From Stappia indica (GTDB lineage Bacteria > Pseudomonadota > Alphaproteobacteria > Rhizobiales > Stappiaceae): a stretch of 64,000 nt of DNA. Numbering within the stretch: position 1 is the stretch's first letter; each line of letters opens with the position of its first letter. The position numbers and the translations under genes are program-made. This document shows positions 45,775-57,262 of the stretch, piece after piece. The stretch covers positions 1,612,001-1,676,000 of the forward strand of contig NZ_CP046908.1 of assembly GCF_009789575.1 (NCBI RefSeq), in the 5' to 3' direction. Under the pieces are notes generated by a model, which saw only the letters and a program-made list of their open reading frames with translations, made no database searches and had not been told where the DNA came from.

Positions 45775-46695
45775 ATGGACGAGATGTCTGGCATCGACGG
45801 TGCGCCGGCGCGGCGGAAGACCGCGAAGGACTTTCCGCAGGAGCTGCTGGAGCTCTACGATTTCTACGCGCACGGCCGGATCGACCGCCGCGAATTTCTC
45901 GACCGCGCCGCCAAGTTCGCCGTCGGCGGCGTGACCGCGCTGGCCCTGCTTCGGCAGCTCTCGCCCGATTACGCGCTCGCCCGGCAGGTCGCCCCGGACG
46001 ACCCCGCCATCGAGACGTCGCGGATCGCCTACGCCTCGCCCAACGGCCACGGCACCGTGAACGCCTATCTGGTGCGCCCGGCCGGCACTGCCGAAAAGCT
46101 GCCCGCCGTGCTGGTGGTGCACGAGAATCGCGGCCTCAACCCGTATATCGAGGACGTCGCCCGGCGCATGGCCAAGGCCGGCTTCATGGCGCTGGCACCC
46201 GACGGGCTGACCTCTGTCGGCGGCTATCCGGGAGACGACGACCGCGGCCGCGAGCTGCAGCGCACGGTCGATGCGACCAAGCTGCTGAATGACTTCTTTG
46301 CCGGTTTCGAGCATCTCGCCGCCCGCGACGACTGCACCGGCAAGGTCGGCGCCGTCGGCTTCTGCTATGGCGGCGGCGTGGTCAACGCACTGGCGGTCGC
46401 CTATCCGGAACTGGGCGCCGGCGCGCCCTTCTACGGCCGTCAGGCCCCGGCCGGCGGCGTGCCGTCGATCGAGGCGCCGCTGCAGCTTCACTATGCCGGG
46501 CTCGACGAGCGCATCAACACCGGCTGGCCGGCCTACGAGGCTGCGCTGCAGCAGCACGGCAAGAGCTACGAGGTGCATTTCTATCCGGGCGTCAACCACG
46601 GCTTCCACAACGACACGACGCCGCGCTACGACGAGACGGCGGCACGGCTCGCGGAAGAGCGGACCATCGCCTTCTTCCGCAAGCACCTGATCTGA
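45775..46695 (+). CDS. Dienelactone hydrolase family protein
   Basis: A 306-aa alpha/beta hydrolase. The nucleophile elbow is [13 protein letters not shown] with Cys near residue 202, the Glu of the family is in [12 protein letters not shown] near 122, and the acid/base residues lie in LDERINTGW and VNHGFHN. The N-terminus ([20 protein letters not shown], then LALL) looks like an export signal, possibly a Tat type, so the protein may be periplasmic. The substrate need not be dienelactone. GGAGGAG lies 5 bases upstream of the start. Confidence 0.87.
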
Positions 46696-46701
46696 AACGC
46701 G

Positions 46702-46729
46702 AAAACGGGCGAGCTTCCGCTCCGCCCGT
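46702..46729 (-). terminator. Terminator hairpin for the 46793-54842 operon
   Basis: ACGGGCG-AGC and GCT-(C)-CGCCCGT pair with a TTCC loop and one bulge; on the minus strand the stem is followed by TTTTC. It lies between convergent ends and could act in both directions. Confidence 0.55.
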
Positions 46730-46792
46730 CCGCATCGAAGGGTCCGGGAGAAGGGCGCCGCCCCTCCTCCCGGACCGCCGCCAAGCGCCGTC

Positions 46793-49700
46793 TCACTCGT
46801 CCTTCACCACTTCCGTGAGTTCCCAGACGGCGACGCCGGCGGAGCCGAGATTGCCGACGACGATCAGCGCCTCGCCGATGATCGCCGGGATGTAATAGGT
46901 CGCTTCCTGGATATCGGGAACGAACAGGAAGCGGGTGGCCTGACCGGGAATGACATTGGTCAGCGCCCGCGACAGGCCGAGCTTGGCGAGCTTGTCCTTT
47001 TTCGGGCTCGCCGCGTAATTCCATGAAATCATTCCGATATTGGCAAAGCCCCACAGCGTGATGGTCAGCTCCGCCGTGTAGGTGCGCGCCTTGCCGCCGG
47101 GAAACGCCAGGATCAGCAGTCCGCGCGTCGGTCCTGCGATGACCTGGCAGATCCAGATGACGCCGGCAAAACCGGGATCGCCGGCCGGACAGCTCGGCGC
47201 CGGCGAGCCGGGCCGGATCAGCCAGGGCATGGTGGCGAAGGTGGTGACGTAGCGCATCAGGACGGCGGCAAGGCCGGCAAGGTTCTTGCCCTTCGGCGTC
47301 CAGCTCTTCGAGTAGTTCTTAAGTCCCTCCGGCACCTTGCTGCCCTGGTCGGGGATCGCGCCGGTGGAGCTGAGGAACCCGGTGAGCCCGTCGGTGAAGA
47401 TGCGCACGACCATGGCGGCGGCGTAGATGCCGAGCGAGACGCCGGCCACCACCTTTTCGGAGGTGCTGTCGAACAGCACCTGCTTGTCCGTCGTCATGCC
47501 GAACTTCGACTTCACCCAGTCGACGGTGACATAGTTCTTGTAGGCGTCGAGCGAAGCCTCGTCCGGGAACGGCGCCTTGCCGGTCGCCAGCTTGTAGATC
47601 AGCGTTGCCGGGATCGCGACCAGCCACGAGGCGATCTGGCTGACGCGGATCGACAGGCTCCTGCCGGTGAAGAACTTGTAGAGCTGCGACAGGACCGGGA
47701 TTTCCCATTCCGAGAACAGCACGTCGCGGAAGGATTCCACCACCTCGCGAACCAGGTCCATCAGCGTCGCGATGACGCCCTTGGCCGCGTCCAGCGCGAA
47801 AAGGGCGACGCTTTCCATCAGCTTGATGACGCCGCTCATCAACAGGTTGAGGGCGTTATTGGGATCATCGCCAATGGCGGTGAAGAAGGTCAGCGCCTCG
47901 TTGAACGCCTCCTTGCCGTCGCCGAACTGGAAGTTGTTGGCAAGGTCCTCCATCATCGCAATCAGCCCGTCGAGCGAACTCGACAGGGCGCTGGAACTCA
48001 TCAGGCTGACCGCGCCGCTGCCGCCCCGTTCGTCGGCCTTTCCGCCATTCTGCTCGTAGGCATTGGCGAAGAGATTGTGTTCCATCTCATAGGCTTGGTT
48101 GTCGGTCATCTCCTGCTGCGACGAGAACTGGTCGTAGGTCGGATTGTCGTCCTTGTTGAGCTCGTCGATCATCGTGTCGACGACCGACTGGAGCGACTCC
48201 TTCAGCGTGTCGATGCCCGACAGGATCATGTCCTTGACGTGGTCGACGCCGGCCGCCGTGAAGTCGAGCAGCACCCGTGTGTTGTGTTCCACCGCCTCGG
48301 CCATGCGCTGGAAGTCGCCGAGGTTGAACAGGAAGGCGAGCCATTCGAAAAGCTGGCGCAGCTTGACCTTCAGCCAGTTCCAGACCCCTTGCACGAAGTC
48401 GAAGGCCTGCTGCACGAACTCGATGATCGCCTCGAACACCTTGCCGGCGATCTCGAACAGCACCCGGCCGATGCCGTCGATGATCTCGACGACGATCTTG
48501 GTCAGCCCGTCGATGACGAAGTTCGCCGCGTTCTTGATGCCGTTCCACACATCGCCCCAGTCGATGCCGAGGAAACCGGCGACTTTGGCGCCGTCGTCAT
48601 TGGCCGCCGAGGCGCGCATGGCGGCAAGGCGCTCGCCCTTCCAGTCGGCGACCTGCGCGAGCGTCATCGGCTGGTACTGCGGAAAGCCGGAGGTGAAGTC
48701 GATGGACCAGGCGGTTCCCGACATGGCGCGCAAGTCCAGCCGCGGATCGAAGCCGCGCGCCGCCTTGCGCCGGGAGACCGTGTGATAGACGACCCGCGCG
48801 GCCCGCGTCTCGCGCTGGCCGGCGATCTCCATCGAGGCCTGAGTGATCTGCTGCAGGCTCTGCGCATACTCGTCGCTGGAGCGATACTCAGCAGGCAGCA
48901 GGTAGTTGCCGGCCGCATCCTTGGCGTTCTTGATGTCCGCGACCGAAAGGGCGGCCAGCTTTTCCTGCAGCTGCAGGTTCGGCTCTACCACGATGGGCGT
49001 GCCGGCCAGCGTTCCCGGCGTCTCGATATAGATCGTCGCCGCCGCCAGCGCCGTTGCCTGCTGGTAGATCACCAGCTTGCCGCCCGGTCCGGTCTGCGCC
49101 GCGACCCGGTTGAGCTGGCTGCAGCGATAGGAGCGCCCGTCGACGAACAGGGTGATGAGGAACGAGGCCTGGATCGAGACCGGCGCGAAGGACAGCGGCA
49201 TGCCGTCTTCGTCCAGCACCACCACTTCCAGCGCATGGGTCTCGACCGGCACCATGTCGTTGTCCTGGCGCAGCAGGTCGATGCGCTGGTCGAACCACTG
49301 GCGCGAGGTCGGCGACTGCCAGAAGCGGGTGAGGTCGCCGGCCGCCGACACCGTATAGGCCTCGGCATAGCCCGCCCGGTCGCGCCCGACGGTGAAGATC
49401 GTCGCCTTGGAGCCCGGATCGGACGGGATCTCGTTGCCGAGCGGAAACAGCGTCTGCCATACCGGATCGGCGCTGCGCCCGCTGCCCGGCGCCTGCCCGG
49501 CGCGCCACAGCCGCCCGTCGGTGCCGATGCCGAAGACCTGCAACAGGTCGTCGAAGGTGACGGAGGCGTAGATCTCGGTCAGCGGCACACTCTGCGGGGG
49601 ATCGACCTGGATCCAGTCGTCGAACTGCTTCACCGTGCCTGACTGGTACTTTTTCTCCTTTTTCAGCAACAGCTTGCCGGTGCCCTGCTCGACCGCGAAG

Positions 49701-50467
49701 ATCGCCAGCCGATCGTTGGCATCCGCCACCACATAGAGCGCCGTCGCCTTCTTCGGCCCGAGCGTGCGCAGCGCCGAGGTGCGGTCGCTGGTCTCGCTGA
49801 ACAGGACGGAATTGTCCTTGCCGATGGCGAAGATCGCCGATTGCACGGCGCTGTTGGCCACCATGGCGATGCTCTTGACCTGGGCCTGTGTGCCGCCAGG
49901 TCCCATCACCGGCGCCCAGACCGGCCCGGCCCATTCGCTGGTGCCCGGCTTGAAGAAATTGTTGGCGAGCAGGCCGTAGTCTTCGCCCGGCACATCCAGC
50001 ATGACGTTGATATAGACATTGCCGGTGATGCCGCGCGCGCCGCGGAACTGGCGGATGGTCTCGCCCGCATCGCGCGGCTTGGTCTCGCGCTGGTAGTAGC
50101 TGCTGGTGGTCGCCTGGTATTCGGCAAGCGACAGCTGGCCGCTGTCGCCCAGCGTCATGATGTTGGGTGTGTCGCTGCCTTCCGTACCGGAGGTGTAGAG
50201 AAACAGCTGCCGCCCGCGGATGTGCAGGTCGGTGTCGTCATAGGGCGCCATCGACTTCTCGCCCCGGCGCAGGCGGTAGATCTCGCCTCCCGTACCGATG
50301 GTGTAGAGGTCGAGATCGCCGGCGCCATTCGCATAGGTAACGATGTCGGTGCCGCCGAGCGCGGGCCGGGAGAGCTGGAAGGTCTCCATGTATTTGGTGC
50401 TGGCGCGCGCCGCCGGGCGCTCGCCGGCATCGAGTTCAGCAAGGACGGACCTGGGCATCGCAATCAT
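46793..50467 (-). CDS. Large protein: beta-propeller, amphipathic helix block, C-terminal membrane segments (unrecognised)
   Basis: A 1224-aa protein without a signal peptide; I do not recognise a family. Residues 1-400 have repeated beta-strand units of propeller type (IVTYANGAGDLDLYTIGTGG, IFAIGKDNSVLFSE, LYVVADANDRLAIFAVEQGT, TVGRDRAGYAEAYTVSAAGD). Residues 412-485 look like an Ig/carboxypeptidase-regulatory-like domain. Residues 640-770 are a long amphipathic helical block (IDGLTKIVVEIIDGIGRVLF and on). Hydrophobic segments lie near 1003-1025, 1062-1083, 1102-1122 and 1190-1213. Such a mix suggests membrane insertion or pore formation, which is inference. GGAGG precedes the ATG. The start overlaps the previous gene by 32 bases. 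It is the last gene of a four-gene operon. Confidence 0.75.
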   Translation of the reverse strand: MIAMPRSVLAELDAGERPAARASTKYMETFQLSRPALGGTDIVTYANGAGDLDLYTIGTGGEIYRLRRGEKSMAPYDDTDLHIRGRQLFLYTSGTEGSDTPNIMTLGDSGQLSLAEYQATTSSYYQRETKPRDAGETIRQFRGARGITGNVYINVMLDVPGEDYGLLANNFFKPGTSEWAGPVWAPVMGPGGTQAQVKSIAMVANSAVQSAIFAIGKDNSVLFSETSDRTSALRTLGPKKATALYVVADANDRLAIFAVEQGTGKLLLKKEKKYQSGTVKQFDDWIQVDPPQSVPLTEIYASVTFDDLLQVFGIGTDGRLWRAGQAPGSGRSADPVWQTLFPLGNEIPSDPGSKATIFTVGRDRAGYAEAYTVSAAGDLTRFWQSPTSRQWFDQRIDLLRQDNDMVPVETHALEVVVLDEDGMPLSFAPVSIQASFLITLFVDGRSYRCSQLNRVAAQTGPGGKLVIYQQATALAAATIYIETPGTLAGTPIVVEPNLQLQEKLAALSVADIKNAKDAAGNYLLPAEYRSSDEYAQSLQQITQASMEIAGQRETRAARVVYHTVSRRKAARGFDPRLDLRAMSGTAWSIDFTSGFPQYQPMTLAQVADWKGERLAAMRASAANDDGAKVAGFLGIDWGDVWNGIKNAANFVIDGLTKIVVEIIDGIGRVLFEIAGKVFEAIIEFVQQAFDFVQGVWNWLKVKLRQLFEWLAFLFNLGDFQRMAEAVEHNTRVLLDFTAAGVDHVKDMILSGIDTLKESLQSVVDTMIDELNKDDNPTYDQFSSQQEMTDNQAYEMEHNLFANAYEQNGGKADERGGSGAVSLMSSSALSSSLDGLIAMMEDLANNFQFGDGKEAFNEALTFFTAIGDDPNNALNLLMSGVIKLMESVALFALDAAKGVIATLMDLVREVVESFRDVLFSEWEIPVLSQLYKFFTGRSLSIRVSQIASWLVAIPATLIYKLATGKAPFPDEASLDAYKNYVTVDWVKSKFGMTTDKQVLFDSTSEKVVAGVSLGIYAAAMVVRIFTDGLTGFLSSTGAIPDQGSKVPEGLKNYSKSWTPKGKNLAGLAAVLMRYVTTFATMPWLIRPGSPAPSCPAGDPGFAGVIWICQVIAGPTRGLLILAFPGGKARTYTAELTITLWGFANIGMISWNYAASPKKDKLAKLGLSRALTNVIPGQATRFLFVPDIQEATYYIPAIIGEALIVVGNLGSAGVAVWELTEVVKDE

Positions 50468-51395
50468 GGAAACCTCCCGAAAATCTGGCCGGTGAAAGAG
50501 ACGGGTCGAAAGGGGTCGTTGCCCGGTCGGCAAGCTGCCGGGCGAGTTGCAGGGCCGGGGCACGCCAGAGCGGGCGGCCATGGGCATTGCAATAGAGGGG
50601 ACGGTCGTGCGGGCGGCGGGCGGCGCGGTCGCGTGCGTCCACCGGCGCGAGCGATGCGGCAAGACCGTCGAGGCCGGGGACGCCGCAGGCCCGCGCCCGC
50701 AGCGCGGCGATCGCCAGTTCCGCCGGGTGGGCGTAGTAGGGACTGAGCACGCGCATCGCCGAACGGCTGGGCGCATGCTGGGAGACGGCTGCGGAAACGC
50801 GCCCGGCCAGCCGCGGCATCAGGACGGAAAGCGAACAGCCCGAGCGCCCTGCACCGCAAGCGGCAAGCGCCGCCAGCACGTTGAGATTGACCGTCAGGTC
50901 GACGGGGCCGGGATCGCTTTCGTGAAACCAGGTGCGCAACAACGGTGCCCGCGCGAACGGCGGATCGCCGCGGCGCAGCGGCCCGCAGGCAAGGCGCGGC
51001 AACAGGCCGGCAAGCCGGACCAGCCCTTCGCGTGCCTCGCGGCGGCGGCCGCCGACCAGCGCCATCCAGGCGAGCGCCGTATCGTCCGCATCCGGCGGCA
51101 GCCCGTCGACCAGGCGCGGCCCGCGTCCCCCTTGCGGATAGAAGCGGAACGCGCCCGGCAGGCCCCCATCCTCGCACGTCTCCAGAAAATCGAGCGCCCG
51201 CCCGTGGGCGTGGATCGCCGCCTCGCTTCGGCCGAGCGCGGCAAGCAGCAGCGCCGCCTGTGCCGTGACGAAGCAGCTCTCGTCGGCGACACACCCGGCC
51301 GGCGTTTCCACCTGCGAGGGGAACGCCCCGGACGAGGCCTGCAAGGCCAGAAGATCGGCCAGAAGATCAGCCAGACGCGGGGCGGGCTCAGCCAT
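50436..51395 (-). CDS. Helical protein with DxDDT motif, terpene-cyclase/prenyltransferase-like
   Basis: A 319-aa, almost all-helical protein. LLALQASSGAFPSQVE and VTAQAALLLAALGRSEAAIH are of the type seen in alpha/alpha-toroid prenyltransferase-squalene cyclase repeats. Residues 102-106 read DADDT in LPPDADDTALAWMALVGG, close to the DxDDTA acid motif of class II terpene cyclases. The protein is much shorter than full cyclases (600+ aa), so it may be a single-domain cyclase-like enzyme or only share the fold. It overlaps its upstream neighbour by 8 bases and its downstream neighbour by 32. Function is not established. Confidence 0.65.
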   Translation of the reverse strand: MAEPAPRLADLLADLLALQASSGAFPSQVETPAGCVADESCFVTAQAALLLAALGRSEAAIHAHGRALDFLETCEDGGLPGAFRFYPQGGRGPRLVDGLPPDADDTALAWMALVGGRRREAREGLVRLAGLLPRLACGPLRRGDPPFARAPLLRTWFHESDPGPVDLTVNLNVLAALAACGAGRSGCSLSVLMPRLAGRVSAAVSQHAPSRSAMRVLSPYYAHPAELAIAALRARACGVPGLDGLAASLAPVDARDRAARRPHDRPLYCNAHGRPLWRAPALQLARQLADRATTPFDPSLSPARFSGGFHDCDAQVRPC

Positions 51396-52497
51396 GGCAG
51401 GCCTCCCGGCTCCGCCCGGAGGCGGCGAGCGTTGCCGTCACGCGCAGCGGAGCCGTGCCGGCCAGCACCAGACCGACCAGCCCGTGCCGCTGCAGCGGGG
51501 CGTCGCTCTCGCCGTGCGGCGCACCGGAACAGACGAGGGCCTGTCGATAGGTTGTCATGTCCCAGCCGCGCGCCGCGCCCTCGGCAAGCAGCGCGTCGGT
51601 CACGCGCGCATCCGGCCCGAGCAGGGCGGCGGCATTGGAGTAGAAGGTGAAGGCCACCGCATGGGCGCGCCGCGCCCGCCCCTCGCCCGCCATCTGGAAG
51701 GCGACGGAAAAGCCGACATCGCTGGAGGGGATCTCGAAGCGGACGCTGCGCCCGGTCAGCCGCTCCACCAGCCGGCGGACCTCCTGCCCGCGCGGGATGA
51801 GGCCGAACCGGCGCATCAAGGTATCGAGATCGCCGGGAAACAGCGGGTCGGTGCGATAATAGAGCTCCAACAGGCCGCCATCCGGCGTGACACCCAGCAT
51901 CGTCGGCCGGACGTTCCGCCCCGTCAGCACCGGCGGCGCGCCGGCAAGGCGCTGCTCGAAACCGGCCCCGAGCGGGCGACCTGCGGCATCCGTCGCGGGC
52001 GCCAGCTCCAGATAGAGCTTGGCCGCGAGGCGACCCGCTGCGCCTTGGCGCAGGCCCGCCCAGGCGCCATAGCGCCCGCCCGCCTGCCGCTGCCAGCAGG
52101 ACAGCCGCGCGGCCAGCCGAAGCACCTCTGGCGACGGCTCGGAGCCCGCGACCGCCCGGCAGAGCGACAGCGCGGCCTCAAGCCGGATCCCGGGCAGCGC
52201 GCCGGGCGCCGGATCGAGACTGACGCGGGGATCGCAACCCGGCTCGCCGTCGGCCCAGACGAAGGCCGCCTCCATCGGCGCGCCGGACGGCGTCAGGTCG
52301 CTCGGTGGACGGCCGGGCGCAAGCACTGCCGGCGGCAACAGCGGACGGACCGCTGCCAGCAGGCTGTCGAGCGGCGAGACGGCCGCAGCCGGGCCGGCTC
52401 CCACCCGCAAGGAAGGGAGCGGTACCGGGGGTGCGCCCCCCGGCCCCTGCTGCAACCGCGCGCTCCCGGAGGGGATCGGCGGGGACATTGCGATCAC
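51388..52497 (-). CDS. Unrecognised 369-aa protein of the 46793-54842 operon
   Basis: A 369-aa soluble protein, no signal peptide. The Pro/Ala-rich N-terminus (1-60) is followed by an alpha/beta region with strand-like segments LAAKLYLELAPAT, MLGVTPDGGLLELYYRTD, VGFSVAFQMAG and AVAFTFYSNAAALLG. The alternating strands with a K-L-Y-x-E element faintly recall ABBA-fold aromatic prenyltransferases; I hold this loosely. Translation starts at a GTG that overlaps the upstream stop (GTGA), with an ATG three codons later as an alternative. The stop is inside the next gene. Confidence 0.6.
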   Translation of the reverse strand: MIAMSPPIPSGSARLQQGPGGAPPVPLPSLRVGAGPAAAVSPLDSLLAAVRPLLPPAVLAPGRPPSDLTPSGAPMEAAFVWADGEPGCDPRVSLDPAPGALPGIRLEAALSLCRAVAGSEPSPEVLRLAARLSCWQRQAGGRYGAWAGLRQGAAGRLAAKLYLELAPATDAAGRPLGAGFEQRLAGAPPVLTGRNVRPTMLGVTPDGGLLELYYRTDPLFPGDLDTLMRRFGLIPRGQEVRRLVERLTGRSVRFEIPSSDVGFSVAFQMAGEGRARRAHAVAFTFYSNAAALLGPDARVTDALLAEGAARGWDMTTYRQALVCSGAPHGESDAPLQRHGLVGLVLAGTAPLRVTATLAASGRSREACHG

Positions 52498-54842
52498 CCG
52501 CCCTGGCGCATCCGCGCGGCCAGCGCACCGGGCTCCATCACCTGGCGCACGAGGCCCGGCGTGACGGTCGCGGGCGGCAAGGCCGGCAGTTCCACCGACA
52601 GGCGGCCCGAGACTTCCTGGCTTTCGAGCTCGCGGGTCGTGCCGTCCTTCAGCACATAGACCGCCGTGTAGTAGAACTCGATGGTCGGCTCGGCAATCGG
52701 CCGCTGGATGCCGTAGAACCGCTCCAGGCTGTCGACGACGACGCCGGACGGCGCACCCAGCAGGCTGAACAGCATCACATTCTGCTGCGAGGCCTCTGCC
52801 TCGATCCGCTGCGCGGTCGTCATCTCGTGGCGCGGCCGCGACAGGAAGGCCGGCACGTCCTTGCCGAACTTATCGCGGACCTGTGGCTTGAGTTGGAACA
52901 TGGTCAGGTTGACGCTCGCCACCTGCGTCCAGTCGACGAGGCTGCTGTCGACCTTCACGCTGTAGTTCTGCACCGTGTTGGTGACCGTCATGGTCTTGTA
53001 TTCGCTCGACTGGCGATAGCCGTCGAGGGTGAAGCTCTCGCCGTTCGAGTAGAAGATCGTCCCCGAAAGGTTGAAATAGGCGTTGTTGGTGTTGTCGACG
53101 GCCTGGAAGTTCCAGCGCGGCTCGGCAAAGCTCAGGAGCCCTGTCGGCTGCCAGTTCGACCAGGTGTTCTCGGCGATCCATTTGTCGCCATTGTTGACCG
53201 GATCGAAATACTGGGCGTTGACGTCCACCAGCAGCAGCGTCGTGGTTTCCGTCGTGTAGTTGAACGCGCGCAGCGTGAACTGGGTGAACAGTCCCTTCGG
53301 ATCGGCCACGAAGACGATGTCCGCATTGCCCGAGCCCGTATAGTCGGGCGCCGACGACAGGGCTCCGGGCGGCTCGGACACGATCTCGCTGTTGTCGGCC
53401 ATCTGGTAGCGCAGCCGGTAGCTGTAGTTCTGGCCGATGGGCAGATTGTAGAAGCTGTCGAAGCGGACCCCGTTCTCCGCACCGTTGGCGGTGAGGGTCT
53501 TGGTCTGGACGATGGCCGGGTTGCCCGCCGGCGGCGCGAAGAAGAAGTCGATATTGACCTCCCGCACCCCGGTCGGACCCGAAAACGGGATATTCTGGCC
53601 GATGAAGGTCACTTGCCGCGTTCCGAAGACGTTCGGCGTGATGTTGACCAGCGTATCCGTCGTTGTGATCGGATCGCTCTTGAAGGTCTTGCCGTCCTTG
53701 AAGTTGATCACATAGGTATAGCTGAATTCCGGATTGTAGCGGCTGCCGGAAAAATCGCCCGGCGCCTCGAAGATCTTCGAGGACTTGTCGCCGTTGGTGA
53801 CGATCAAGGTGAACGTGTTGTCGGTCGGCCGCGTCGGATAGGTGACGGTGACCGCCACCGTCTCGGCAACCGGATCGTCGGTGCCGGAGCGGTTGAGCTC
53901 GCCGATCAGGTTGAACACCACCGACAGCTTGCGGTTGTCGACCCTGGTGAAGACCTGGCGCCACTCCTCGGAGCTGAAGCGGCGCATGAAGCTGCTCACC
54001 GGCGTCGACCAGTCGATCACCGTGTCTTCCTGGTAGGTCTGGTTGAACGAGGTCGTCGCCGAGACCGGATTGGGACCCGTCGCCATGACGGCGGCCGCCG
54101 CCACCGTGTTGGCGACCTGGTTCTCCAGCGTCGTCCAGCCCCAGTCGCGCACCCGCTGGGCCAGCTCGTCGCTGCTGCCCGGCCCGAGCTCGACCTTGAC
54201 TTCGCCCGCGCCCGACTGGCGCAGCACCTGCTTGACCTCCTGCAGCACCTGCTTCTGGTTGCCCCAGGTGTCGCGGACGGTCTTGTATTTCTTCTCGTAT
54301 TCGATGGCCGCCTCGGCGGTGTAGATCACCGTCGCCTTGGCGCCGAGCAGCTTGGTCAGCACCTGCATCTCGTATTCGACGCGGAAGGTGGAGGCACCGC
54401 CCTCGTCGCCGCTGAAGGCGTTCTTGAAGCTGTTGACCGCCTCGGCCGTTTCGAGCTCGATCTGGAAGGCGGCGACATTGGTGCCGTAGAGCGTCGGCTC
54501 GACCGCCAGCACCTGGTTCTCGCCGGCGATGTCATAGTAGAAATAGGCGGTCCCGCCGACCCAGACGAAGCCGCCCCAGGAGATGTCGGAGCCGAGGATC
54601 TCTTCGGCCGCGCGGCGCGCCTCCAGCGGCTGCACCAGCTCCATCTCGAAGGTGCAAAGGCCGGCGATGCCGCCGCCATTGGAGGTGTATTCGGTCATCC
54701 CGAAGGACGGTGCCCCGTCCAGCGTCCGCAGCCGCGGCACCGGCACCATGTACCAGAGCTTGGGATTGTCGTGGTCCTGGTAGACATAGGTGACGCCGCT
54801 GGCGCCGTACTCGATCTCGCGAACGCTCGAGACGTCGAACAT
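52494..54842 (-). CDS. Unrecognised 782-aa beta-rich protein, first gene of the operon
   Basis: A 782-aa protein with no signal peptide and no membrane helix. Residues 1-125 are strand-rich (GVTYVYQDHDNPKLWYMVPV, MTEYTSNGGGIAGLCTFEME). Residues 170-250 are helical (AAIEYEKKYKTVRDTWGNQK). Residues 320-640 look like several tandem beta-sandwich units rich in Thr, Asn, Tyr and Phe. A C-terminal acidic tail follows. GC content is visibly lower than in flanking genes (about half near 53040-53100), which hints at transfer or relaxed codon use. GGAGGG lies 5 bases upstream of the ATG. The AT-rich leader 54843-55091 presumably carries the operon promoter. Confidence 0.7.
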   Translation of the reverse strand: MFDVSSVREIEYGASGVTYVYQDHDNPKLWYMVPVPRLRTLDGAPSFGMTEYTSNGGGIAGLCTFEMELVQPLEARRAAEEILGSDISWGGFVWVGGTAYFYYDIAGENQVLAVEPTLYGTNVAAFQIELETAEAVNSFKNAFSGDEGGASTFRVEYEMQVLTKLLGAKATVIYTAEAAIEYEKKYKTVRDTWGNQKQVLQEVKQVLRQSGAGEVKVELGPGSSDELAQRVRDWGWTTLENQVANTVAAAAVMATGPNPVSATTSFNQTYQEDTVIDWSTPVSSFMRRFSSEEWRQVFTRVDNRKLSVVFNLIGELNRSGTDDPVAETVAVTVTYPTRPTDNTFTLIVTNGDKSSKIFEAPGDFSGSRYNPEFSYTYVINFKDGKTFKSDPITTTDTLVNITPNVFGTRQVTFIGQNIPFSGPTGVREVNIDFFFAPPAGNPAIVQTKTLTANGAENGVRFDSFYNLPIGQNYSYRLRYQMADNSEIVSEPPGALSSAPDYTGSGNADIVFVADPKGLFTQFTLRAFNYTTETTTLLLVDVNAQYFDPVNNGDKWIAENTWSNWQPTGLLSFAEPRWNFQAVDNTNNAYFNLSGTIFYSNGESFTLDGYRQSSEYKTMTVTNTVQNYSVKVDSSLVDWTQVASVNLTMFQLKPQVRDKFGKDVPAFLSRPRHEMTTAQRIEAEASQQNVMLFSLLGAPSGVVVDSLERFYGIQRPIAEPTIEFYYTAVYVLKDGTTRELESQEVSGRLSVELPALPPATVTPGLVRQVMEPGALAARMRQGG

Positions 54843-55091
54843 CACAGCCCTCCATCGAAAAAATTGAATGAATTCCAATCACACTCTATGCGCGAACTTT
54901 CGCACCGAGGACAGGCTCACACAATCGATAGAAGCTGCAATATTGATCCTATTTTCGACATTGAACGGGCAATTCAAGTCGAAATTGAAATTACAACTTT
55001 CTCAAAACTGTCATAGTTACGCAGAGTAATTTGATAAAAATGATCAAATACATTGAAATAAAGGCGCAAATCGCAATCACTGGTGAAAATA
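54843..55091. promoter_or_regulatory. AT-rich leader upstream of the 782-aa gene
   Basis: About 250 bases, far more AT-rich than the rest of the window, between the sitD stop and the first gene of the unknown operon (both minus strand). It contains the inverted repeat ATTTGAT-N7-ATCAAAT at 55029-55049. No clear -35/-10 hexamers or terminator could be fixed. No gene is supported in it. Confidence 0.5.
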
Positions 55092-56015
55092 TCAGGCCAC
55101 AGGCTGGCCGACGCGCCGACGATGCGGAGCAAAAAGGCAGGCAATGGCCAGGATGACGCCGGACACGGTGGCGATCATGCCGGCGGCGCTGACGGCGTTG
55201 ACGGCGCCGAACCACTGCGGTCCATACCCGGCCAGCACATAGCCGAGCACCGCGGAGAGCGCGGCGAAGATCGCGCTCCAGGCGACCTGTCGCTCCAGAC
55301 GCTCGGTCATCAGCCGCGCCGTCGCCGGCGGGCAGATGAACATGGCAATGACGATGATCGAGCCGACCGCGTCGAAGGCCGCAACCGCGGCCACCGCGGA
55401 GGCCGCAACCAGCCCCAGGCCGATCAGCCGCACCGGCAGTCCGAGCGTCGCGGCGAAGCCCTCGTCGAAGGTAGAGAGTTTCAGCGGCCGCCAGAACACC
55501 AGCATCAGCGCGGTCATCGCGGCGGCGACCAGTGCGATGCGCGGCAGCTCGGGCGGCAGGCCGGCAAGCGCTGCCGGATCCAGCAGCGAGCCCCAGCCGG
55601 TCGCATCGAACCAGATCAGGCTTTCCAGATTGCCCATGAGCGCGTGCTCGACATCCAGATGAACCCCGCTGGTGTCGCTCTGCTCCAGCAGCAGAACGCC
55701 GCCGGCAAACATCGCCGTGAAGACGACGCCCATCGCGGCCCCCGGCTCGATGCGGCCGAGCCGGCGGATGGTCTCGATGAGGAGGACCGCGACCAGCGCA
55801 GCGCCTGCCGCCCCCGCGAGCATCGGCAGGCTGGCCAGGCTGCCGGTGACGAGGAAGGCAACGACGATGCCCGGCAGCACCACATGGCTGATCGCATCGC
55901 CGATCAGCGCCTGCCGGCGCAGGATCAGGAAGTTGCCCGGCAGTGCGCAGGCAATCGCCGAGAGCACGCCGATGAGGATCGGCGTCAGCGACAGCTGGAC
56001 GAACTCGGCACCCAT
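55092..56015 (-). CDS. sitD: Manganese/zinc ABC transporter permease (SitD-like)
   Basis: A 307-aa ABC-3 family permease with about eight helices. The family motif ILRRQALIGDAISHVVLPGI is near residue 30, and GFAATLGLPVRLIGLGLVAA lies in the coupling region. The ATG overlaps the upstream permease stop (TGATG). It is the last gene of an operon ordered binding protein, ATPase, permease, permease, as in sitABCD. The metal is inferred from the binding protein and the upstream sites. Confidence 0.87.
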   Translation of the reverse strand: MGAEFVQLSLTPILIGVLSAIACALPGNFLILRRQALIGDAISHVVLPGIVVAFLVTGSLASLPMLAGAAGAALVAVLLIETIRRLGRIEPGAAMGVVFTAMFAGGVLLLEQSDTSGVHLDVEHALMGNLESLIWFDATGWGSLLDPAALAGLPPELPRIALVAAAMTALMLVFWRPLKLSTFDEGFAATLGLPVRLIGLGLVAASAVAAVAAFDAVGSIIVIAMFICPPATARLMTERLERQVAWSAIFAALSAVLGYVLAGYGPQWFGAVNAVSAAGMIATVSGVILAIACLFAPHRRRVGQPVA

Positions 56016-57262
56016 CAGCTTGCCTCCCCGCGCCGCAGCGTCGCCGAAGCGGCAAGCATGCGGTCGATCTCGGCGATCTCGTCGCCCGTCATCACGGCCG
56101 TAATCGGCGTCAGCCCGTCGTAGCGGTGGCTGAGCGGATCGTCCCGGTGGATCCGGCGCGCCACCTCGAAACGGCGCTCGTCGACCAGCGCGCGGCCCGC
56201 CTCGATGCGTCCGGCCTCGGTCGGCACCCGGTCGGGGCGGATCAGCCCCTCGCGGCGCAGGACCTTCAGCGTCAGCGGATCGAAGATCGGCTCGCCCCGG
56301 GCCAGCGACAGCAGGCCCTGGCGGCGGTGCAGGCGCAGCTGGAAGCGGCGATGGCGGATGGCGGCGGCCAGCACGCCGCGACCGGGCGCGAAGGCCAGGG
56401 ACAGAAGAAACAGCGAGAAGGCGACGAGCACGATGATCGGCCCTGTCGGCAGGCCCGGCGCGGCGGCGGACATGGCCGCGCCCGCATAGCCCGATACGCC
56501 GCCGATAGCGCCGGCGATCAGCACCACATGGTCGGTCCGCTCGCTCCACAGCCGGGCGGCGACCGGGGGGATGATCAGCAGCGCCACCACCAGCACCAGC
56601 CCGACGATCTTCAGCCCCGTCACGGTGACGGCCAGTACCAGCAGCATCATGGCAAGATCGATGCGGCGGGTGTTGAGCCCGAGGGCGGCCGCAAAGCCCG
56701 GATCGAAAGACACCAGCGTCATCGGCCGGCGCAGCGCGACCAGCGCGAGCACGGCGAGCACGCCGCCGAGCGCGATCACCACCGCATCGGAATAGAGCAT
56801 ACCCGCCGTCGAGCCGAGCAGGAAGCCTTCCAGCCCCGCCTGCCGCCCTTGCGACAGGGTCTGGATCACCGTCAGCAGCACGATGCCGAAGCCGAAGAAG
56901 ACGGAGAGCACCGCGCCGATCGCCGTATCCTCGGCAAGACGGGTGCGGCGAGTGATCCACTCGACGCACAGAAGACCGAGCGCGGCCGACAGGGCGGAGC
57001 CGGCCAGCAGCCCCACGAGGCTGCGCCCGTCGAGCCCGAGGCCGACCATGACGAGAAAGGCGATGCCGACGCCCGGCAGCGTCGCATGGGCGATGGCGTC
57101 GCTGACCAGCGCCCGCTTGCGCAGGAACAGGAAGGTGCCCCCCGCCCCGGCGGCGATGCCGAGCAGCCCCGCGCCGATGGCGACCAGCGCCGCATTGTAG
57201 CCGGCCTGCAGCAGGAGCGCGGAAACGAAGGCTTCCAGCGGGGAACCCGACACCGGCATCAC
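56015..57262 (-). CDS. sitC: Manganese/zinc ABC transporter permease with C-terminal regulator-like domain (SitC-like)
   Basis: A 415-aa permease. Residues 1-293 form the ABC-3 membrane domain ([40 protein letters not shown]). Residues 294-415 are a soluble extension with a winged-helix-like segment ([40 protein letters not shown]) reminiscent of DtxR/MntR regulators, ending in an acidic helix. Bacillus MntC has a similar long form. Start GTG at 57262, overlapping the ATPase stop. The tail may sense metal or gate the channel. Confidence 0.86.

Follow-up and report, generated by a model that had tools for sequence, protein, structure and literature searches.

A conserved four-gene operon of Stappia indica joins distant relatives of aromatic prenyltransferases and terpene cyclases to a possible toxin- or lectin-type protein system

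Four overlapping genes of Stappia indica, here called A to D, are kept together and in the same order across the genus, and the evidence leans towards a toxin- or lectin-type protein system that would carry its own prenyl-tailoring enzymes. This view is built on the gene overlaps, the conserved linkage, the profile similarities that tie B, C and the front part of D to known superfamilies, and a small set of kept motifs. In the reading that we favour, tentatively and in full awareness that it may well prove wrong, the operon would encode a toxin- or lectin-like, sugar- and membrane-directed protein system together with two dedicated tailoring enzymes (B and C), which would put a cyclised prenyl group on A. 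A literature search found no description of an A-B-C-D cluster.

Results

The operon and its conservation in Stappia

The window, the whole stretch of 64,000 nucleotides analysed here, lies within a complete chromosome of 5.12 Mb. The open reading frames of A (782 aa, 52494-54842), B (369 aa, 51388-52497), C (319 aa, 50436-51395) and D (1224 aa, 46793-50467), all on the minus strand, were confirmed where an earlier note on this DNA had placed them, with overlaps of 4, 8 and 32 bp for A/B, B/C and C/D, respectively. The same note had credited the genes with ribosome sites or coupled starts, and purine-rich Shine-Dalgarno-like stretches are indeed found 5' of A (GGAGGG), C (GGGAGG) and D (GGGAGG); B, which starts with GTG, has no clear one, and its translation would be coupled. 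The AT-rich leader also described there is real: it separates A from the metal ABC transporter genes (54843-55091, minus strand) and has 37.8% GC, a value reached or undercut in only 1 of 1276 equal-sized stretches of the window. Short ORFs overlap this leader, there is no intergenic room among the four overlapping genes, and a consensus scan of 46600-55200 gave no sigma-70-type promoter. The shared terminator, on the other hand, was not borne out, since the strong hairpin after D (46741-46776, minus strand; 15-bp stem; MFE of -38.3 for the folded 58 nt, z of -3.4) is not followed by a T-run and has no entry in the terminator scan; as a possible transcript end, it would fit a shared one. As for base composition, A (63.9% GC) lies below 98% of the equal-sized stretches of the window, as had been claimed for the first gene, but D is similarly low (64.7%), with B at 75.0%, C at 72.4% and the window as a whole at 68.4%. 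No prenyl diphosphate synthase was found among the six flanking proteins scanned. The ABC-3 metal permease encoded nearby (56018-57262) carries about 120 extra C-terminal residues, which look like part of a DtxR-type regulator by eye and for which Pfam gives no such match.

Each of the four genes is present in 12 of the 13 other Stappia genomes searched, and the genome in which all four are missing (G001) is an assembly of 89% completeness and 7% contamination; the remaining relatives searched (47 for A and 27 each for B, C and D) gave no matches. The genes are co-located in the same order in all 12 relatives having them, which rules out a chance cluster. If starts are chosen to agree with those of the window, C and D overlap by 32 bp in all 12 relatives and B and C by 8 bp in nine (the others giving -26, +76 and +82, depending on the start chosen), while A and B overlap by 4 bp in two relatives and are separated by a gap of 4-9 bp in ten. 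The dN/dS ratios (NG86, window against 4 of the 12 relatives) range from 0.10 to 0.65 over the four genes, being tighter for A and D (0.10-0.34) than for B and C (0.28-0.65), so that B and C diverge faster. A spurious cluster of chance ORFs was therefore rejected, given the conserved order and ratios below 1. A recent genomic island in Stappia was also rejected, because a metal ABC transporter (PF00950 permeases) adjoins the operon upstream in 11 of the 12 relatives and a dienelactone hydrolase lies beside it in 8.

The joint conservation that the earlier note had proposed looking for in other genomes was thus found, both in Stappia and in an alphaproteobacterium of another family (G729), whose locus also reads A-B-C-D. 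The note had named two grounds for abandoning its view, a lack of such conservation or the membership of each gene in an unrelated characterised family, and neither situation was encountered. Its proposal that the parts act together holds in the form of conserved linkage (A-B-C-D in all 12 Stappia relatives having the genes and in G729, A-B-C in five more loci). Its suggestion of a specialised-metabolite, toxin or surface-structure system is very broad, and of these the findings lean towards a toxin- or lectin-type protein system equipped with enzymes for prenyl tailoring.

Loci outside Stappia

Genomes were sampled rather than exhausted, and the loci outside Stappia were read with profiles of A, B, C and D. 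The genes A, B and C are adjacent in 19 loci: 13 in Stappia (the window and 12 relatives), one in G729, one on the Azospirillum plasmid AZO_p5, one on Calothrix plasmid3, and three in genomes of a further genus (G099, G324 and G800). In the regions read, the two plasmids and the three genomes of the further genus have A-B-C without D. Outside Stappia, A was found in 2 of the 384 other genomes of a class sample (G099 and G324) and on three plasmid records (Azospirillum lipoferum, Calothrix and Bradyrhizobium, the last with a fragment among transposases), and D in 1 of the 397 other genomes of a phylum sample (G729). B occurs in 4 of 10 genomes of the family of G099 (G099 included) and in 2 of 218 of the family of G729, one being G729 and the other a piece of 61 codons interrupted by stops. 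The linkage of A and D was seen only in Stappia and G729, and the D profile had no match in the fetched regions of G099, G800, G324, Azospirillum and Calothrix except for a chance-level piece (E 0.7), the search reaching 13 kb beyond C in G099 and the contig of G324 ending 0.6 kb after C.

In none of the 19 loci are B and C fused, and they adjoin A in 19 of the 20 loci that have a complete B. The one that differs holds an orphan B in G227 (L105 9117-10073), which lacks A and retains of C just a 33-residue remnant within the 19.9 kb fetched; this B reads K-L-H for K-L-Y, and it looks as if B decays there after the loss of its partners. The composition of the A-B-C loci varies around this core. 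In Calothrix, A-B-C is followed by a short protein consisting only of the N-terminal module of A (A-N, see below); the G099 and G800 loci have a short A-N protein, three A-type genes, B and C; and the G324 locus has a short A-N protein, A, B and C. The Azospirillum locus has a gene of the MakA family (430 bits, above the curated cut-off of 320) two positions upstream of A; it is read in the same direction, a gap of 33 bp precedes A, and the MakA-type gene has on each side one gene with weak coiled-coil or HBL-like matches only. Further on in Calothrix, the region after A-B-C holds a distant relative of MnuA-like nucleases (L077 11594-12634) and a 1494-aa protein (L077 12698-17182) that is similar in its C-terminal part to the middle of A.

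B and C, two putative tailoring enzymes

B is, by profile similarity, a distant and divergent relative of the DMATS/ABBA-type aromatic prenyltransferases, from which its fold and catalysis may be presumed. Searched alone against three libraries, the B protein of the window had no convincing match. PF11991 (Trp_DMAT) matches 2 of 14 B members, with a best E of 0.0072, and TIGR03429 (DMATS) matches the one B relative scanned with E 0.0071, both below the curated cut-offs. When a 14-row B profile was compared with the PDB, the best match was a DMATS enzyme (E 6.8e-4) and 2 of the 4 matches at E<=10 were DMATS enzymes, the single-stretch value (i-E 0.16) not being significant alone. A profile of distant members (five distant relatives and one Stappia row), searched against 177,635 PDB sequences, returned DMATS-type enzymes as its top three matches and as 5 of 9 matches at E<=10, again with single stretches that are not significant alone (i-E 1.6 and 11). 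A Stappia-only profile found no DMATS enzyme in the PDB, one B relative searched alone found none either, and a fragment query gave nothing useful. In the opposite direction, PF11991 had no match in searches of 15 and 398 genomes, for which 1 of 14 control genomes was flagged in the first search (not over the cut-off) and none in the second.

The matched stretches of B are collinear with the DMATS enzymes (PDB 6zrx, 4yzj, 3i4x) and place E76 (codon at 52270-52272, minus strand), R91 and K160-x-Y162 (52012-52020, minus strand) on the corresponding conserved Glu, Arg and first K-x-Y. The residues E76, R91, K160 and Y162 are invariant in all 14 aligned B proteins, the G227 orphan lying outside the alignment. 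We take these Glu, Arg and K-x-Y positions to be catalytic residues in the DMATS enzymes. The second K-x-Y of the DMATS barrel differs, reading E-x-Y in 14 of 14 B proteins, and for this reason we class B as a divergent relative and not as a member, one in which donor binding may differ or be lost. A second difference from the DMATS enzymes is that no metabolite gene context was recognised around B.

C appears to be a single-barrel, class II terpene-cyclase-like protein, for which an alpha/alpha barrel and cyclase activity would be expected from motif and profile similarity. The C protein of the window had no convincing match in three libraries, and Pfam terpene cyclase models had none in 14 C proteins. 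The D-x-DD motif, which in the window reads D-A-D-D (residues 102-105; 51081-51092, minus strand), is present in 18 of the 19 loci. A 14-row C profile weakly finds six ORFs of 647-720 aa in the class sample (12 of 385 genomes matched, its own included), which by size and motif are probably squalene-hopene cyclases, and in the alignments printed the motif of C sits on their DVDD. The three PDB matches of the C profile are all squalene-hopene cyclase (best E 0.047). A profile-profile comparison (hhalign) of C with the six ORFs gave 82.5% (E 9.8e-6), motif on motif, against 4.1% and 0.8% for B and A as controls. Nearer to C (98.5%) is a third group, of three proteins of 312-373 aa, whose neighbouring genes are housekeeping or unmatched and give no functional hint. 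The exception to the kept motif is the C of the Stappia genome G013 (L071 9035-9850), which is without about 50 residues, in frame and including D-x-DD, while the frames of A, B and D are open; this is either a real loss or an assembly collapse.

A and D, a family of its own and a lectin-propeller-like protein

A, which by eye is beta-rich, forms a family of its own: three library scans of the window protein, as well as scans of A relatives, gave no convincing known family. Matches of single A relatives to Trypan_PARP and SslE were set aside as uninformative. The most widely shared part of A is the A-N module (about residues 1-195; 54258-54842, minus strand), also found elsewhere as a stand-alone protein of about 210 aa. 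Near its end lies the candidate acceptor tryptophan W193 (codon at 54264-54266, minus strand), kept in 13 of 15 aligned A-N modules. Since all 15 modules have D23, P36, F126 and Y157, conservation does not single out W193, the role of which may possibly be structural.

The stand-alone A-N proteins deserve separate mention. The Calothrix one (L077 9953-10582) ends in KWVRS at the tryptophan equivalent to W193. Three loci of a single genus encode A-N-only proteins (215-217 aa, with starts chosen by ourselves) that make up the C-terminal part of longer ORFs (L084 10594-11496, L106 18462-19601 and L107 4676-6655) and end in DAADW plus four residues; the W193 position itself reads C, W and W in the three (by eye). 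All four stand-alone proteins thus have a C-terminal tryptophan followed by three or four residues (DAADWAAAR, DAADWESVA, DAADWTTAR and KWVRS). They lie in gene groups that also hold B and C, and resemble small precursors of a protein type. At the operon of the window itself, no small precursor peptide of the kind used by NctPC (see below) was recognised.

D combines a lectin-propeller-like front with a helical, partly hydrophobic rear half. The propeller-like part (approximately 49268-50350, minus strand) is of PLL/CV39L type: residues about 100-385 of the window D match NF052348 (E 1.7e-5, 24 bits against a cut-off of 200), and the D of G729 matches the CV39L lectin model NF052350 (E 6e-10, 39 bits against a cut-off of 350). 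D differs from these lectins in lying far under the curated cut-offs and in having about 800 additional residues of beta and helical sequence. The helical core (residues about 634-967; 47567-48568, minus strand) is shared with plasmid proteins of cyanobacteria, Undibacterium and Streptomyces (in pieces). Residues 636-708, 730-768 and 890-923 are amphipathic, and TM-like stretches occur at 424 and, three in number, after 1000; the D profile had no match in the PDB. The core relatives lie on four plasmids (Stanieria, Streptomyces, Undibacterium and Kovacikia) with no A-B-C in the regions read. They are proteins of 1072-1696 aa (L079 11089-14682, L081 8402-11875, L082 5778-8996 and L080 7742-12832), of which that of Stanieria alone matches lectin propeller models; the annotation of the Undibacterium protein includes LamG, and the Kovacikia protein has a PQQ-propeller protein in its vicinity.

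A phage origin was not supported, A having no matches in phage records and the profiles of D, A and B no relatives in viral contigs (pattern scans); the similarity of D to tape measure proteins is confined to helical stretches. Matches to PF09755, Pizza6 chains, the 'peptidase' phrog_15561 and TED_complement were set aside as uninformative.

The earlier description of the four proteins as belonging to no known family is therefore accurate for A, for which nothing convincing was found, and too strict for B, C and the front of D, which fall distantly, below curated cut-offs, in known superfamilies. Its labels fared better: 'cyclase-like' for C agrees with the D-x-DD and with the similarity to squalene-hopene-cyclase-sized ORFs, and 'propeller' for D with the lectin model matches.

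Discussion

A is the sole constant partner of the B and C pair across loci, and on this ground we propose A as the acceptor. In the mechanism that we favour, B would take the prenyl chain of a prenyl diphosphate and attach it to an aromatic residue of A, most likely a tryptophan, with the A-N module as its recognition domain, and C would then fold the A-bound chain into a polycyclic terpene, protonating it from D-x-DD; the order B then C is itself deduced from the putative activities. The modified A might serve as a hydrophobic anchor or as a partner of D, whose propeller would bind glycans and whose helices would touch membranes, and elsewhere A could serve other partners, such as a MakA-type alpha-pore-former. 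We hypothesise that A receives the prenyl group, with W193 as the site, that A and D cooperate, and that there is a target cell and a toxic action in Stappia.

Several known systems offer parts of this picture. A review (PMC13290415) describes NctPC (a RiPP maturase; Hubrich et al. 2024) as a fusion of an ABBA prenyltransferase with an MstE-like cyclase, which attaches a geranylgeranyl chain to a tryptophan of a peptide before cyclising it. The likeness lies in an ABBA-fold prenyltransferase of low similarity to known ones together with a single-domain cyclase, in the order of B then C; the difference is that NctPC is one fused protein acting on a peptide, whereas here B and C are separate and have a large constant partner, A. 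PLL lectins have been suggested to act in host interaction (PMC12203525), and MakA/B/E of V. cholerae are described as a tripartite cytolysin (PMC8617504). The resemblance to Mak/HBL alpha-pore-forming toxins consists in the MakA-type neighbour of A-B-C in Azospirillum, but the A and D of the window match no such family and no such gene lies in the Stappia operon.

Prenyltransferases and cyclases of the B and C types act on small molecules in most known cases. We have accordingly to consider that B and C make a free meroterpenoid, B prenylating a small aromatic compound and C cyclising it, with A and D as carriers, receptors or an unrelated co-expressed toxin. The substrate could be a metabolite made elsewhere in the cell, and there is a precedent in MstE, a one-domain class II cyclase that cyclises geranylgeranylated dihydroxybenzoate (PMC9401909). 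MstE resembles C in its single-domain class II cyclisation by protonation (C being of single-domain size with D-x-DD) and differs in its small aromatic substrate. Against this explanation, the constant neighbours of B and C are A-family proteins, and those genes beside A-B-C that are annotated or were scanned include none recognised as making a metabolite scaffold, oxidising it or transporting it; we consider this explanation unlikely.

It is also rather improbable that B and C have ceased to be enzymes and are retained to help A and D in binding or assembly (as a chaperone or a self-protection factor holding a lipid or hydrophobic segment), as the invariant Lys to Glu change in the second barrel motif of B, the loss of D-x-DD from one C and the faster divergence of both proteins might suggest; the Glu, Arg and K-x-Y of B and the D-x-DD of C persist in loci that have diverged widely, and binding alone need not select for them in this way. 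Least probable is a surface or adhesion apparatus made of A and D that plays no part as a toxin and is lipidated by B and C for anchoring in the cell's own outer membrane, an idea to which the lectin-like propeller, the beta-rich modules and an occurrence more like that of a core trait than that of a weapon (12 of 13 Stappia relatives, beside the metal ABC transporter in 11 of 12) would be congenial, and which is opposed by operon proteins with no signal peptide-like start (by eye), by an operon with no transporter gene within it, and by the position of A-B-C behind a MakA-type pore-former gene in Azospirillum.

Returning to the modification of A by B and C, a more far-reaching version, which we regard as doubtful, is that the pair attaches and cyclises a long prenyl chain on a tryptophan of whole large proteins of the A family, with A-N as a protein-sized recognition leader, and that in two or more phyla it so arms systems of the lectin and pore-forming types. 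In the literature consulted, the modification of a polypeptide with a cyclised terpene is described for a peptide system, NctPC (PMC13290415). If our proposal is true, the present cassette would extend it to whole proteins and provide a new type of membrane anchor, the A-N module would be a family with which such modification could be tracked, and four hypothetical genes kept across Stappia would become testable enzymes and substrates.
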